A DNA stretch of 64,000 nt, taken from contig SCUE01000037.1 in the NCBI GenBank assembly GCA_004297775.1, positions 62,001 to 126,000 on the forward strand, in the 5' to 3' direction. Shown in pieces: positions 46,660 through 53,632 of the stretch. Source of the stretch: Chloroflexota bacterium (GTDB lineage Bacteria; Chloroflexota; UBA6077; FW602-bin22). The notes beneath the pieces are model-generated. The model was not told the origin of the DNA. It saw only the letters and a program-made list of their open reading frames with translations, and made no database searches. Numbering within the stretch: the stretch's first letter is position 1; each line of letters begins with the position of its first letter. Position numbers and translations under genes: made by a program.

Positions 46660-48885
46660 CTAGCCACGCGCGCGAAACAGGATCGCAATGAGATTGTCGA
46701 CCGGCGCATATTCGTCGCTCAGGATGATCGGCGGCCCATCGGCGATGTACTGATCGAGCAGCGGCCCCGGCATCGCAACGGTCCGCGACTGAACCCCGCG
46801 GGCGTTGTAGGACGCCCGCAGCGCCTCGACGTCGATCCCGGCGGCGGAACCCGCGATCACCCAGACGTTGGCGCCGCCGCTCTCCCACGCCGGACTGGCG
46901 GCCAGCAGTTGAACGACCGGGAACGTCTGCTTCATCGTCCGGGCAGCCGACCGGAGCAGTTGACCGTCGCGATACAGGTCGATCACGGTCAGAAGATAAG
47001 CGCCGTCCGGCTTGAGCAATGCGCGCACACGGTCGTTGTACTCGCGCGTCATGATGTGGTACGGCACCGACAGGTCGTTCACTGCATCCTGGACGACCAA
47101 CGCGTAGGCGCCCGGCGGTGCAATCTCCTGCACGTACTGCCGCCCGTCGAGGTTGAACGACTGAATCCGAGTGTCGCGCGGCATCGCGAAGTACTGGTGG
47201 GCAACCTCCGTCACACCGGCGTCGATCTCGACGACCTCGACCGTGGCGCCGGGTAGCCGGGCGTCGACCCACCGCGGGTAGGTGTAGCCGCCACCGCCGA
47301 TGACGAGCATCCGCAGAGGCCCGAGCCGCTCCGCGTACATCGTCGCGATCTCGGACTGAACTTCTTCGTGAACGTAGCCGAGGAATCCGGGGTCACCAAC
47401 CTTCACGAACGAGTGAACGAGGTGGTCGAGGACCAGTGTCCGGAGTGTCCCGACGCCCGGCCGCTCCTCCGTGCCGACCTTAATGCAGAAATAGTTTGTC
47501 TCGACCGTGCAGCGCGAGCGCGCCGCGTCGCGCCACAGCAGGGCGCCGACCATCGCGACTGCGAGGACGACGACCGCCGCGCCCGTCACAGGCGCCCGCC
47601 AGTATCGGCCGACCAGTAGCGCCAGTAAGAGAAGCGTCAGGCCCAATCCGAACACGAGCGCGTGGACACCGAGGGCGGAAATGAGCCACCAGCCGGTCGC
47701 GAACGTTCCAGCGATCGCTCCGGCGGTCGACCAGGCATAGATCTCGCCGCTGACGCGTCCGGCCAAGCGTGGGTCGGTGATCGCCAGCTTGACGACTTGC
47801 GGCGAGATCGTGCCGAGGAAGAATACCGGGACGAAGAACACGACGAACGTCTCGGCGACGATGCGTTCGATTAGTCCGAGTTGACCCCACATGTCGTGCG
47901 CGTCGAGAAGTTCGACCAGAAGCAGCACCGCCAGCGTCGCGATCGCGCCGGCCAACAGCGAGTACGCTAGCGTCCGCTGGTCGGAAGAACGATCGGCGAT
48001 CCAGCCGCCGAAGTAGTTGCCCAGCGTGATCGCGAAGAGGACCACGCCGATGATGCCGGTCCAGCTGTAGAGGGAGAGGCCGAGGGAAGGCGCCAGGATG
48101 CGGCTGGCCGCGAGCTCGACTCCCATCGTCGCGAAACTGGAGAAAGCGACGATCACGCAGGCAAGAGGGACGTTGCCGACCAGATCGAGCGTCCCCAATC
48201 GCGCCACGGTTCCGGCCCAATCGTCCGCGGTGACGCTGTCATCCGTTTCGCTCTCGCCGGTTCCGCCGAATCGCAGCGAGACGAGCGCCAGAACGACGAG
48301 GATCGTCGCGACTCCCAGAAGAATGGTCGTGACCGAAAGATACGCCGTGAGGACGAAGCCGGTCGCGAAGTTACCGATCAGACTTCCGGCCGTGCCGCTG
48401 GCGTAGACCACGCCGATGACACGACCGGCGCGGGCGCGATCCGTCACCGCGCGCGTGATGACGAGCGGCGTGATCGCGGCAAGCGCAAAGCTGGGCGGGA
48501 GGAATCCGGTGGTCGTGAGCACGAATATTCGACCCAGCAGATCGAGACCGCGGACCGGCGATAGCCCGGCCAGCCAAGGCACAACGAGCATCGGCACGAT
48601 CGAGAGTGCCGCCCCGAGGAAGAAGAGACCGGCGACGCGCGCGCCGGATGCCGACCGCGAGGCCCAGCGTCCACCGGCCCAGTTCCCGAGGCTGATTCCA
48701 GCCAGGACGACGCCGATGATCGAGGTCCATGTATAGAGCGAAGACCCGATGTACGGCGCCAGAACGCGCGCGGCGATCAACTCGACGATCAAGGTTGCCG
48801 CGCTGGCGCCGAATGCCAGGGTTGCGGCGAGCGGAACGCTGATTCCGCGAGCGGACGCGTCACTCGCTCGCGACACGTCCACCAT
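46660..48885 (-). CDS. Duplicated MFS membrane module fused to a spermidine-synthase-like domain
   Basis: ATG 48885 gives 741 residues (track: 783); a TATACT box lies 10 nt upstream. Two related membrane halves open with AATLIVELIAARVLAPYIGSSLYTWTSIIGVVLAGISLGNW and again VELAASRILAPSLGLSLYSWTGIIGVVLFAITLGNY, a clear internal duplication. After about residue 500 an extended loop leads to a spermidine-synthase-type methyltransferase fold (RMLVIGGGGYTYPRW, VEVVEIDAGV, IQSFNLDGRQYV). Such fusions are common in Chloroflexi and Deltaproteobacteria but have no proven function; aminopropyl transfer and transport coupling are guesses. It is the first gene of the operon with the AAA+ and VWA genes. 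Confidence 0.87.
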   Translation of the reverse strand: MVDVSRASDASARGISVPLAATLAFGASAATLIVELIAARVLAPYIGSSLYTWTSIIGVVLAGISLGNWAGGRWASRSASGARVAGLFFLGAALSIVPMLVVPWLAGLSPVRGLDLLGRIFVLTTTGFLPPSFALAAITPLVITRAVTDRARAGRVIGVVYASGTAGSLIGNFATGFVLTAYLSVTTILLGVATILVVLALVSLRFGGTGESETDDSVTADDWAGTVARLGTLDLVGNVPLACVIVAFSSFATMGVELAASRILAPSLGLSLYSWTGIIGVVLFAITLGNYFGGWIADRSSDQRTLAYSLLAGAIATLAVLLLVELLDAHDMWGQLGLIERIVAETFVVFFVPVFFLGTISPQVVKLAITDPRLAGRVSGEIYAWSTAGAIAGTFATGWWLISALGVHALVFGLGLTLLLLALLVGRYWRAPVTGAAVVVLAVAMVGALLWRDAARSRCTVETNYFCIKVGTEERPGVGTLRTLVLDHLVHSFVKVGDPGFLGYVHEEVQSEIATMYAERLGPLRMLVIGGGGYTYPRWVDARLPGATVEVVEIDAGVTEVAHQYFAMPRDTRIQSFNLDGRQYVQEIAPPGAYALVVQDAVNDLSVPYHIMTREYNDRVRALLKPDGAYLLTVIDLYRDGQLLRSAARTMKQTFPVVQLLAASPAWESGGANVWVIAGSAAGIDVEALRASYNARGVQSRTVAMPGPLLDQYIADGPPIILSDEYAPVDNLIAILFRARG

Positions 48886-48934: not shown

Positions 48935-48963
48935 TTGTCGCCTTGGGAGGCCGCAACTACAAT
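48935..48963 (+). promoter_or_regulatory. Promoter of the gltB leader
   Basis: TTGTCG (48935-48940), a 17-bp spacer and TACAAT (48958-48963) form the best sigma-70 promoter in the window. Transcription would begin near 48970, just before the first leader hairpin. It also lies next to the divergent MFS-spermidine synthase start. Confidence 0.6.
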
Positions 48964-49048
48964 CGCGGACATCTCTCCTCGCTCGGAGAGACCGTTGACG
49001 ACGACGTCCACGGCTCGGCGGATCCGCGGCCGAGCGTGGACGTTTTTT
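48964..49048 (+). ncRNA. Attenuator-like leader RNA upstream of gltB
   Basis: From a start near 48970 the RNA would fold first as a 7-bp hairpin (TCTCTCC 48972-48978 with GGAGAGA 48985-48991, 6-nt loop). It would next fold as a 15-bp stem with one bulged G (49004-49019 with 49029-49043) followed by TTTTTT (49043-49048), a textbook terminator. Loop bases CGCTCGG (48980-48986) are complementary to CCGAGCG in the terminator's 3' arm, and the same GCTCGG occurs in its 5' arm. Pairing of hairpin 1 with the 3' arm would prevent termination. gltB starts 63 nt later. The ligand is unknown; a plain small RNA is the alternative. Confidence 0.55.
49004..49048 (+). terminator. Rho-independent terminator inside the gltB leader
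   Basis: 15-bp stem with one bulge, a 9-nt loop and a six-T run. It is the only strong hairpin I found in the window with a proper U-tract, and it lies before rather than after a gene. Confidence 0.72.
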
Positions 49049-49111
49049 CATAGGTCGAAGGCATCAAGGCGGCTCATCGGCACACTCAGAAATCAGGAAT
49101 CGGCAGCGAGT

Positions 49112-52100
49112 ATGAGACTCCACAGACCCGCCGGTGCGGAGCGCACCCTTTACGACGCCAGATTCGAGCACGATGCCTGTGGAGTTGGGTTTGTTGCGCG
49201 GGCCGACGGTCGGCCGACGCACGAGATCGTTCGCCAGGGGATCGATTCCGTCATCAATCTCACCCACCGTGGCGCCGTGTCGGCCGACGCGCGGTCTGGC
49301 GACGGCGCGGGCATCCTGACGCAGATTCCTCGACGCCTTCTGGCCGAGGATCTGGCCGCGCGTGGAATCCGCAAGTTCGACGCCGATCGCATGGCGGTCG
49401 GCATGTTCTTCATGCCGCGCTCCTCGATCGACACGGAGCGCATGAAGTCGATCGTCACAGGCGCGTGCGAGCGGCGCGGTTTCACGGTCGTCGCCTGGCG
49501 CGACGTGCCGGTCGACCCAACCGTCCTCGGCGAAAAAGCGCTCGTGACCCAGCCAACGGTCGTTCAATTGATCGTCGTGCCGCCGATAACACTCGATGCG
49601 CGCGCGATCGATCGAGACCTCTTGCTGATCCGCAAGGAGAGTGAGCGCCAGGCCGAGGCCGCCGACATCACTGACTTCTACGTTCCCTCGTTCTCGTGTC
49701 GCACCATCGTCTACAAGGGCCTGTTCGTCGCACCGCAATTGGGAGGGTTCTACCGCGATCTCGAGGATCCGCGTTTCGAATCAGCCCTGGCCGTTTTCCA
49801 CCAACGCTATTCGACCAATACGTTCCCGAACTGGCAGTTGTCGCAGCCGTTCCGTTCCCTGGCCCACAACGGCGAGATCAACACCCTGCAAGGCAACCGA
49901 AACTGGGTGCGCGCGCGAACCGGGGCGATGCGCTCGACGGCGTGGGGCGATCGGATTGCGGAACTGGCGCCGATCATCTGGGAGGAAGGCTCCGACACGG
50001 CCAGCCTGGATGAGACCGTCGAACTCCTGGAGCTCTCGGGCCGCGACGTCCTGCACAGCATGATGATGCTCGTGCCGGAGGCGTGGGAGAACATGCCGCA
50101 CATGGTTCCGGCCTGGCGGTCGTTCTACGAGTACCACGCGTCTTTGACCGAGCCGTGGGATGGCCCTGGATCGTTCGCGTTCAGCGACGGCACGGTCGCT
50201 GGCGCCTCTCTCGATCGCAACGGCCTTCGTCCGGCTAGGTACAAGGTCACGGCCGACGGCGTGGTGATCGTCGCATCCGAAGTCGGCACGATCGATATCC
50301 CAGAGTCCGAGGTCGTCGAGAAGGGCCGCCTCGGCCCTGGCCAGATGATCGCCGTCGATACGGCGCGGCATTTGATCTTGCACAACGACCGCATTAAGGA
50401 CGAGGTCGCCGGACGCAAGCCGTACGGCGAGTGGGCGCGCCGCTATTGGCGCCTCGGTGAGCACGTCACGCCTCGACTACCGATCGGCTCGTTGAACGGC
50501 ACCACGAAGCCGCTGCAGCACGCCTTCGGTTACACGAATGAAGAGGTCAAGTTTGTCCTCGAACCAATGGGCGTCGACGGCAAAGAGGCGATCTGGTCGA
50601 TGGGCGACGACGCGCCGCTCGCGATCCTGTCGCGCAAGAATCGGGTTCTCTACCACTACTTCCGGCAGCGATTCGCCCAGGTGACAAATCCGCCGATCGA
50701 TCCACTGCGCGAAGCGATCGTCATGTCGCTCGACGCGTATCTCGGACGGCGCGGCTCACTCCTCGAAGAGACACCGGAACACGCGGACCTCATCCACATC
50801 AAGCATCCCTTGCTCGTCGCCGAGGAACTGGATGCGATTCGCTCGGTCGGCGCGCCGCACCGGACGGCGAGCTTGTCCGCTCTCTTCGATCCGCGCGCCG
50901 GAACGGACGGGCTCGATCGCGCGCTGACCGACCTCGTCGAACACGCGATTGCCGAGGTCGAGGCGGGTGCGACAATTCTGGTCGTGTCCGACCGCGGAGT
51001 CGACGCCGCTCACGCGCCAGTACCGATGATCCTGGCCGTCGGCGCGGTGCACCACGGTCTGATCCGCGCCAATCGACGCTCCGCCGCCGATATCATCGCC
51101 GAGACCGGCGACGCGTGGGACGTTCACCAGATCGCTTGCCTGATCGGGTATGGCGCCAGCGCGGTTCATCCGTACCTGGCGATCGAATCGATCGTCCGGT
51201 TGGCTGAGGAACTGACGGTCGAGAACCTCGATCCAACGCGCGCCCTCCGGAACATGCGAACGGCCGTCAGCGACGGGCTGCTCAAGATTCTCTCGAAGAT
51301 GGGTATTTCGACGCTGACGAGCTATCGGGGCGCCCAGATTTTCGAGGCGATCGGGCTCGGTGACGACGTGATCGACCGCTGTTTCGCCGGAACACCGTCG
51401 CGCATCGGCGGCATGGGCTTGAAGGAGATCGCCTCCGACACGGTCCAGCGACACGCCGAAGCCTTCGGCTTGCCGGCCGGAGACCTGAAGTTGCATGACC
51501 CTGGGTTCTACCGGTTCCGCCGCGACGGCGAGTACCACGACTACAACCCGCGTGTCGTGCGGGCGCTGCAAAAGGCGGCTGACACCGGCGGCGCGGCCGA
51601 CTACCGCGCTTTTGCCGACATGGTCAATGGTCGCGACCCGGCCGCGCTTCGCGATCTGATGCGGGTCGCGACCGGTCGCGCGCCGATTTCGATCGACGTC
51701 GTGGAGCCGGTCGAATCGATTCGCCGACGCTTCACGACGCAGGCGATGTCGCTGGGCGCCCTCTCACCGGAGGCGCATTCGACGATCTCGATCGCGATGA
51801 ATCGCATCGGTGGCCGATCGAATACCGGCGAAGGCGGCGAAGACCCGGTCTGGTACCGCCGGCGTGGTGATGGCGACTCGGCCGACAACAAGACGAAGCA
51901 GATCGCGTCCGGCCGATTCGGCGTCACGACCGAGTATCTGGCGCACGCGTTCGAGATCGAAATCAAGATGGCCCAGGGGTCCAAGCCGGGCGAGGGTGGA
52001 CAACTACCTGGCCACAAAGTGTCCGAACTGATCGCGCGCCTGCGCCATTCGGTGCCGGGCATCCCGTTGATCTCGCCGCCACCCCACCACGACATCTACT

Positions 52101-53632
52101 CGATCGAGGATCTCGCGCAACTGATCCACGATCTAAAGACGGTTAACCCGCGTGCGCGGATCGGCGTGAAGCTGGTGGCGGAGTCCGGCGTTGGCACGAT
52201 CGCGGCCGGCGTCGCCAAGGCGTACGCCGACTACGTTCTCATTTCGGGTCATGCCGGTGGCACCGGCGCCTCACCGCTGTCATCGATCAAGGGCGCCGGA
52301 TGTCCGTGGGAGCTCGGCCTGGCCGAGACGCAGCAGGTCCTGGTCCTGAACGATCTACGCGGTCGTATTCGCGTCCGGACCGACGGTGGCCTGAAGACCG
52401 GCCGCGATGTCATCGTCGCCGCGTTGCTCGGCGCCGAGGAGTACGGTTTCGGCACCGGCGCCGTCGTCTCGATTGGCTGCGACATGGCGCGAGCATGTCA
52501 TCTGAACACGTGCCCGACCGGCATCGCCACTCAGCGCGAAGATCTTCGCGCTAAGTTCACCGGTCGCCCGGAGCAACTGATCAACTACCTGACGGGCATC
52601 GCACAGGAGGCTCGCGAATTACTCGCCGCGATGGGCTGCCGTAGCCTTGACGAGATCATTGGCCGGAGCGACTTCATCAACCAGAATCGCGAAACGTCGA
52701 ACCCGCGGGCAAACATGCTCGACCTGACGCGACTGATCGCGCCGCCCGATCCGGAATTCAAGCGCCCGATCCGCTCGGCCGTCGATCGAAACGATCGCGG
52801 CGAGATCCCGCTCGACGACTCCATCCTGCCGGAGTTGGCGGCGGCGATCGAGCGATCCGAGCCCTGTTCGGTCGCGCGGATGGTGCGGAATCGCCACCGC
52901 ACGGTCGGGACGAAAATCGCCGGGGAGATCGCCTACCGTCACGGATCGGAAGGCCTACCTGACGCGACGGTCGAGCTCTGCTTCGAAGGCACCGCCGGTC
53001 AGAGTTTCGCCGCCTTCACCACGCGAGGAATGCGCATCGTCCTGCACGGCGAAGCCAACGACTACGTCGGAAAGGGAATGTCCGGCGGCGAGATCATCGT
53101 CCGCCCGCCCGATGCAGCCCGGTACGACTGGCACGAGAACACGATCATCGGTAATACCGTGCTCTACGGTGCGACCGGCGGAGCCCTTTACGCCGCCGGA
53201 CGAGTCGGCGAGCGATTCTGTGTTCGCAACTCCGGCGCCTTGGCGGTCGCCGAAGGCGCCGGCGACCATTGTTGTGAGTACATGACCGCCGGCATCACCG
53301 TGATCCTCGGCGAGACCGGCCGCAATTTCGGCGCGGGCATGTCGAACGGCATTGCCTTCGTACTGGACGAAGAGGACCAGTTCCCACGACGATACAACCC
53401 CGATATGGTGGGCATTGAGCGCGTGACCAACGAGGATGACGCGGAGGTCTTGCGCACGATCGTCAACCGACATCGCGAGGAAACCTGCAGCCCGCGAGCG
53501 GCCGCGATTCTGGCCGAGTGGGAGCGGTACCTCCCGATGTTCTGGAAGGTCGTGCCGCACCCGTCGAAGGGAAAGCAGCAGACAACCGTATTGGCAGTCC
53601 GAGCGAGCCAGCGCGCAGCGCCGCGCGCGTAA
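49112..53632 (+). CDS. gltB: Glutamate synthase large subunit
   Basis: The track ORF starts at 48749; ATG 49112 gives 1506 residues, the family's normal size. The N-terminal class II glutaminase domain has its nucleophile Cys23 (HDACGVGFVA) after a short propeptide. The central domain and the FMN-binding synthase domain follow (TGEGGEDPVWY, GGTGASPLSSIKGAG), then the iron-sulfur cysteines ARACHLNTCPTGIA and the C-terminal GXGXG domain. It converts glutamine and 2-oxoglutarate to two glutamates. No small subunit gltD is adjacent, since the next gene is a GNAT acetyltransferase. It may be ferredoxin-dependent or gltD may lie elsewhere. Its leader carries the attenuator described above. Confidence 0.96.
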   Translation: MRLHRPAGAERTLYDARFEHDACGVGFVARADGRPTHEIVRQGIDSVINLTHRGAVSADARSGDGAGILTQIPRRLLAEDLAARGIRKFDADRMAVGMFFMPRSSIDTERMKSIVTGACERRGFTVVAWRDVPVDPTVLGEKALVTQPTVVQLIVVPPITLDARAIDRDLLLIRKESERQAEAADITDFYVPSFSCRTIVYKGLFVAPQLGGFYRDLEDPRFESALAVFHQRYSTNTFPNWQLSQPFRSLAHNGEINTLQGNRNWVRARTGAMRSTAWGDRIAELAPIIWEEGSDTASLDETVELLELSGRDVLHSMMMLVPEAWENMPHMVPAWRSFYEYHASLTEPWDGPGSFAFSDGTVAGASLDRNGLRPARYKVTADGVVIVASEVGTIDIPESEVVEKGRLGPGQMIAVDTARHLILHNDRIKDEVAGRKPYGEWARRYWRLGEHVTPRLPIGSLNGTTKPLQHAFGYTNEEVKFVLEPMGVDGKEAIWSMGDDAPLAILSRKNRVLYHYFRQRFAQVTNPPIDPLREAIVMSLDAYLGRRGSLLEETPEHADLIHIKHPLLVAEELDAIRSVGAPHRTASLSALFDPRAGTDGLDRALTDLVEHAIAEVEAGATILVVSDRGVDAAHAPVPMILAVGAVHHGLIRANRRSAADIIAETGDAWDVHQIACLIGYGASAVHPYLAIESIVRLAEELTVENLDPTRALRNMRTAVSDGLLKILSKMGISTLTSYRGAQIFEAIGLGDDVIDRCFAGTPSRIGGMGLKEIASDTVQRHAEAFGLPAGDLKLHDPGFYRFRRDGEYHDYNPRVVRALQKAADTGGAADYRAFADMVNGRDPAALRDLMRVATGRAPISIDVVEPVESIRRRFTTQAMSLGALSPEAHSTISIAMNRIGGRSNTGEGGEDPVWYRRRGDGDSADNKTKQIASGRFGVTTEYLAHAFEIEIKMAQGSKPGEGGQLPGHKVSELIARLRHSVPGIPLISPPPHHDIYSIEDLAQLIHDLKTVNPRARIGVKLVAESGVGTIAAGVAKAYADYVLISGHAGGTGASPLSSIKGAGCPWELGLAETQQVLVLNDLRGRIRVRTDGGLKTGRDVIVAALLGAEEYGFGTGAVVSIGCDMARACHLNTCPTGIATQREDLRAKFTGRPEQLINYLTGIAQEARELLAAMGCRSLDEIIGRSDFINQNRETSNPRANMLDLTRLIAPPDPEFKRPIRSAVDRNDRGEIPLDDSILPELAAAIERSEPCSVARMVRNRHRTVGTKIAGEIAYRHGSEGLPDATVELCFEGTAGQSFAAFTTRGMRIVLHGEANDYVGKGMSGGEIIVRPPDAARYDWHENTIIGNTVLYGATGGALYAAGRVGERFCVRNSGALAVAEGAGDHCCEYMTAGITVILGETGRNFGAGMSNGIAFVLDEEDQFPRRYNPDMVGIERVTNEDDAEVLRTIVNRHREETCSPRAAAILAEWERYLPMFWKVVPHPSKGKQQTTVLAVRASQRAAPRA

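Follow-up and report, generated by a model that had tools for sequence, protein, structure and literature searches.

A conserved attenuator upstream of gltB in Chloroflexota is probably an atypical ANTAR-type antitermination leader

A promoter, two hairpins and a terminator lie ahead of gltB in the 64,000-nucleotide stretch of Chloroflexota DNA analysed here (hereafter the window), raising the question of whether this leader regulates gltB and, if so, what works the switch. A sequence-only reading had taken it for a nitrogen-responsive attenuator of a new type, resembling the glutamine riboswitches. The regulated gene encodes the full large subunit of glutamate synthase (49112..53632, + strand, ATG at 49112), whose closest named relatives were from Chloroflexi MAGs.

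The leader begins with a sigma-70-like promoter (TTGTCG-17-TACAAT, 48935..48963, + strand; hexamers at 48935-48940 and 48958-48963), a match that on its own is at chance level (1 found vs 0.8 expected in 6 kb). It is followed on the + strand by hairpin 1 (P1; TCTCTCC[TCGCTC]GGAGAGA, 48972..48991), which has 7 bp, a hexaloop and a C-G closing pair, by hairpin 2, the antiterminator (P2; CCGT-T-GAC[GACGAC]GTC-C-ACGG, 48992..49013), and by an intrinsic terminator (49003..49048; stem 49003-49044, -30 kcal/mol) with T6 at 49043-49048. The core of P2, GAC[GACGAC]GUC (48997-49008), comprises 3 bp and a hexaloop (49000-49005) with G at loop position 1 and G4 at 49003; the G1-C6 bases could pair, which would leave a tetraloop. 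A 4-bp extension joins CCGU (48992-48995) to ACGG (49010-49013), and the linker of 5 nt between P1 and the GAC of P2 is itself able to pair as the CCGU part of this extension. The P2 3' arm (GUCCACGG) forms the 5' base of the terminator, whose 5' arm includes GUC (49006-49008) and ACGG (49010-49013). In total the leader is ~75 nt long, and its fold had a z-score of -4.5 against shuffled sequences. Folding of growing prefixes gave the order P1, P2, terminator. The neighbouring gene (46663-48885, minus strand) is divergent from gltB, so the terminator is not that of an upstream gene. In this neighbour, a spermine/spermidine synthase domain appears to be fused to a membrane part that resembles MFS proteins at a score under the Pfam cut-off.

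The sequence-only reading had listed a promoter, a first hairpin, a terminator with its T6 tract and complementary segments, and all of these were recovered. It had also proposed that P1 and the terminator exclude each other through a 'loop CGCTCGG'. The complementarity of CGCTCGG (48980-48986) to CCGAGCG (49030-49036) is real, and GCTCGG is repeated at 49013-49018, but two bases of this 7-mer belong to the 3' arm of P1, whose actual loop is TCGCTC. In the window, P1 and the terminator 3' arm are able to make a 10-bp helix.

Conservation was assessed, as that reading had suggested, by comparing the region upstream of gltB in relatives. The same-family comparison covered two sequences, the window and G001, which belongs to a second genus (N-terminal gltB region 64% identical); a scan of the contigs of other genomes returned mostly distant matches and no further genome recognisable as the same family. 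In G001, both promoter hexamers were kept with a spacer of 19 nt (17 in the window), followed by a C-G-closed hexaloop P1 with an unlike stem (GAGTCC[AGTTCT]GGACTT), a linker of 6 nt, the block GACGACGACGTCCACGG, identical to that of the window and including the P2 core, and then a terminator with a U-rich tract. The hairpin and terminator architecture was therefore retained in these two sequences. The P1 stem and the upper terminator had diverged yet were still paired, whereas the block over P2 and the terminator 5' arm was without any change. The complementarity between the P1 loop and the terminator 3' arm was absent from G001 (loop AGTTCT), and the proposed exclusion by this route thus does not extend beyond the window. 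On this comparison, the conserved competitor of the terminator is P2, the hairpin on the terminator base.

The terminator is far more stable than P2, and this would also suit an unregulated element. A partial terminator might hold gltB output at a constant low level, or 48970-49048 might be a short, independent small-RNA gene, gltB being expressed through read-through or another promoter. Competing hairpins are, moreover, frequent by chance. Those of -6 kcal/mol or lower accompanied 237/313 background terminators versus 15/16 gltB terminators (P = 0.08); as such hairpins are common by chance in GC-rich DNA, mutual exclusion alone proves nothing, and general hairpin competition was dropped as uninformative. 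We consider an unregulated element improbable, given that the P2 and terminator 5'-arm block is identical in G001 while the remainder diverges and that terminator leaders with specific hexaloops are a repeated feature upstream of gltB in many families and are not seen upstream of glnA or amtB. A further reading takes the conserved block as coding: in the two same-family leaders it would spell a Thr-rich stretch (ACG ACG ACG TCC ACG) on which a ribosome might stall over P2, and the window has GGAGAGA ahead of a TTG. Such leader-peptide attenuation is very improbable, since the start codon and ribosome site differ (the candidate start is TTG in the window and, in G001, an ATG at the 5' end) and the hexaloop hairpin occurs without the Thr run in other families.

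Across the class, a terminator leader preceded gltB in families f1, f4, f6, f10, f11, f13 and f15, which are most of the gltB-bearing families. Given this recurrence, and that of the promoter, hairpin and terminator in G001, we are highly confident that the leader is a real, conserved transcription attenuator for gltB, as the sequence-only reading had held. The upstream terminators of two f9 genomes (G014 and G016) were left out of the survey because they come after a tRNA-Sec-like sequence upstream of gltB (L036 and L041; anticodon region TCA, by eye). In a further family, f26 (L242, L243, L252), two successive terminator-like hairpins lie at about -216 and -56 from gltB; the same genomes carry three ANTAR genes, and the arrangement suggests tandem attenuators.

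Hexaloops in the P2 position elsewhere in the class included GGC[AATGGC]GCC, GGC[AACGTT]GCC, GAGCTGGC[AGTGAA]GTCGGCTT and CGAC[GATGGA]GTCG, and upstream P1 hairpins in other families included GTTCGAAC[AAAGAC]GTTTGGAC, GTCTGAAC[AAGGGC]GTTTGGGT and CGGTC[AGTGGC]GATCG. We defined a P2 motif as a loop with R1 and G4 on a stem of at least 3 bp, located on the terminator base; the relaxation to R1 was chosen after the class data had been seen and before the held-out set. This motif was present on 9/16 gltB terminators versus 16/327 background terminators in the class (Fisher test, P = 1e-7) and, with the rule fixed, on 6/20 gltB terminators in a held-out set of 21 genomes outside the class (P = 7e-4; three of the six matches were weak), both P values being optimistic because the genomes are related and not independent. 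The held-out matches included the canonical hairpins GGAC[AAAGAA]GUCCACGG and GGAC[AGTGTT]GUCCACGG, which have the 3' arm GUCCACGG in common with the window. Of 10 leaders, 5 had a canonical P1 hairpin, with R1 and G4 in a C-G-closed loop on a stem of 5 bp or more, where shuffled sequences predicted 0.24; counting every C-G-closed hexaloop on such a stem, whatever its loop bases, raised this to 7 (1.15 expected).

No ANTAR-like leader was found close to glnA or amtB in 65 upstream regions, one spurious match lying at -623, and these genes were rejected as further targets. An inverted repeat, TGTGC-N4-6-GCACA, was present upstream of 15/25 amtB genes (1.1 expected by shuffling), including that of the source genome (L205). 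Genomes of f6 and f2 also had it before gltB; it was absent before the gltB of the window, and it is a likely operator of a nitrogen regulator.

By the published definition, an ANTAR target is a pair of hexaloop hairpins, each with A1 and G4, of which the 3' one overlaps a terminator (PMC3369931). For the EutV structure, G4 is reported to be the only base-specific contact and a single hexaloop the minimal motif (PMC8934654), and P2 conforms to this. Like the leaders of E. faecalis eut (EutV), K. oxytoca nasF (NasR) and P. aeruginosa amiE (AmiR) (PMC3369931, PMC8934654), the gltB leader combines two C-G-closed hairpins, each with a 6-nt loop and a stem of at least 3 bp. As in those leaders, hairpin 2 lies over the terminator base and has G4 in its loop, and the linker is short, within the 5-12 nt seen in eut. 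Further likenesses are a nitrogen gene downstream and, encoded in the genome, a REC-ANTAR protein with G4-contact residues, predicted to contact that base. In contrast to these systems, P2 carries an outer-stem extension, the regulator gene is not adjacent to gltB, and the A1 + G4 rule is broken in both loops: loop 1 lacks G4 and, in the window, also A1 (TCGCTC, with T1 and C4; AGTTCT of G001 has A1 only), and loop 2 has G4 behind a G at position 1. On account of the two loops the leader is not filed as a standard ANTAR RNA and is here called an atypical ANTAR type.

The departure of P1 from the loop rule in the window's family, together with its ability in the window to pair over 10 bp with the 3' arm of the terminator, would fit a regulated attenuator of another kind, in which a nitrogen metabolite acts through P1 and the antiterminator, sensed either by the RNA itself as a riboswitch or by a different RNA-binding protein. 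Neither the P1 loop nor the P1-terminator pairing was kept in G001, however, and beyond P2 the ~75-nt leader has no additional conserved core. Searches with Rfam covariance models gave no gathering-score match in the window to the glutamine riboswitch or to any other riboswitch; at E values up to 1 the sole hit was whalefall-1 (18.7 of 37 bits), and known RNAs were rejected, the Spot_42 and whalefall-1 matches being far below threshold. We therefore regard non-ANTAR regulation as unlikely. The cyanobacterial glutamine riboswitch resembles this locus in placing a regulatory leader ahead of a nitrogen-assimilation gene and differs in that no Rfam gathering-score match supports it in the window; the features observed fit antitermination by an ANTAR protein instead of the riboswitch likeness first suggested.

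An ANTAR-type leader would depend on a suitable regulator. A PF03861 search identified ANTAR proteins in 23/29 relatives, usually one per genome. The source genome encodes one REC-ANTAR protein (194 aa), with best PDB matches to Rv1626 (1s8n, 211 bits) and EutV (6wsh/6ww6, 148 bits). Its gene directly follows a kinase gene whose product carries the domains GAF_PdtaS and HisKA_2. In the REC-ANTAR protein, the residues by which EutV holds G4 were kept (R142, K149, E160), with Y164 replaced by F; M172, N173 and R175 were also kept, with R168 changed to Q and R177 to S. Most of the genomes with such gltB leaders encoded one PdtaS-type kinase/ANTAR pair in which the EutV G4-contact residues were retained. 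The RNA-binding face was the same in the source genome as in families with canonical loops, and the protein has thus not been altered to suit atypical loops. The pair resembles mycobacterial PdtaS/PdtaR in its kinase domains and in having Rv1626 as the regulator's best PDB match. For the mycobacterial system, published links are to the sensing of copper/nitric-oxide and of iron/redox (PMC8131098, PMC11537054); the candidate target here differs in being gltB.

In G008, which belongs to the same order as the source genome and in which gltB was not found, an apparent operon (L230:1666-5235, minus strand) places a PdtaS-like kinase gene, an ANTAR response-regulator gene and glnA one after another. 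As judged from this gene order, the operon is an independent link to nitrogen assimilation, and the nitrogen-responsive part of the earlier proposal is in this sense indirectly supported. The leader was present and an ANTAR gene was not found in G006, G041 and G051, all incomplete genomes. Co-occurrence of leader and regulator was dropped as uninformative, ANTAR genes being found in 13/14 class genomes with the leader and 6/8 without it.

Further sites were sought in 1.64 Mb (41%) of the 4.0-Mb draft assembly of the source genome, on both strands. Within it, the gltB terminator was the strongest terminator-like site bearing an uninterrupted T tract (TTTT), one of only two sites at or below -25 kcal/mol, and the sole TTTT site at or below -16 with a hexaloop hairpin on its base. 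P2 alone occurred on 25/669 terminators, roughly the chance level, and no site in the scanned 1.64 Mb combined a canonical P1, P2 and terminator.

Taken with the loop, linker and regulator features above, we judge it somewhat probable from sequence comparison that the leader is an ANTAR-type antitermination leader run by the PdtaR-like ANTAR protein of the source genome. RNA polymerase would start near 48970 and make P1, then P2 and then the terminator; by default the more stable terminator would form and transcription would stop near 49048. The PdtaS-like kinase would activate the REC-ANTAR response regulator, whose ANTAR domain would bind the P2 hexaloop and contact G4, and P2 so bound would be held long enough to block the terminator, allowing gltB to be transcribed. 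We infer ANTAR binding to the gltB leader, the participation of P1 and a nitrogen-related input signal. The leader most probably works like an ANTAR RNA; we class it as a variant of an established switch, not as a novel riboswitch. Nor is the earlier proposal of a new type supported, because ANTAR antitermination has been suggested before for glutamate synthase genes: ANTAR substrates are predicted at those of Desulfotomaculum reducens (PMC3369931), a member of another phylum whose attenuator is likened to ours by description. The literature searched contained no account of glutamate synthase under ANTAR control in Chloroflexota.

More tentatively, the window's family may possess a single-recognition ANTAR antiterminator, in which P1 has lost its recognised loop and is structural only and P2 (G1, G4) binds alone, a natural single-hexaloop attenuator within a PdtaS/ANTAR glutamate synthase regulon found across much of Chloroflexota; we consider this possible rather than likely. 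If true, the leader would provide a test, in a natural setting, of one hexaloop as the minimal ANTAR target, and ANTAR target models would have to relax any demand for A1 and G4 in each of the two loops. For regulators of the PdtaS/PdtaR type, the gltB leader is an RNA target beyond the mycobacteria that can be put to the test, and it would tie such regulators to nitrogen assimilation in a little-studied phylum.
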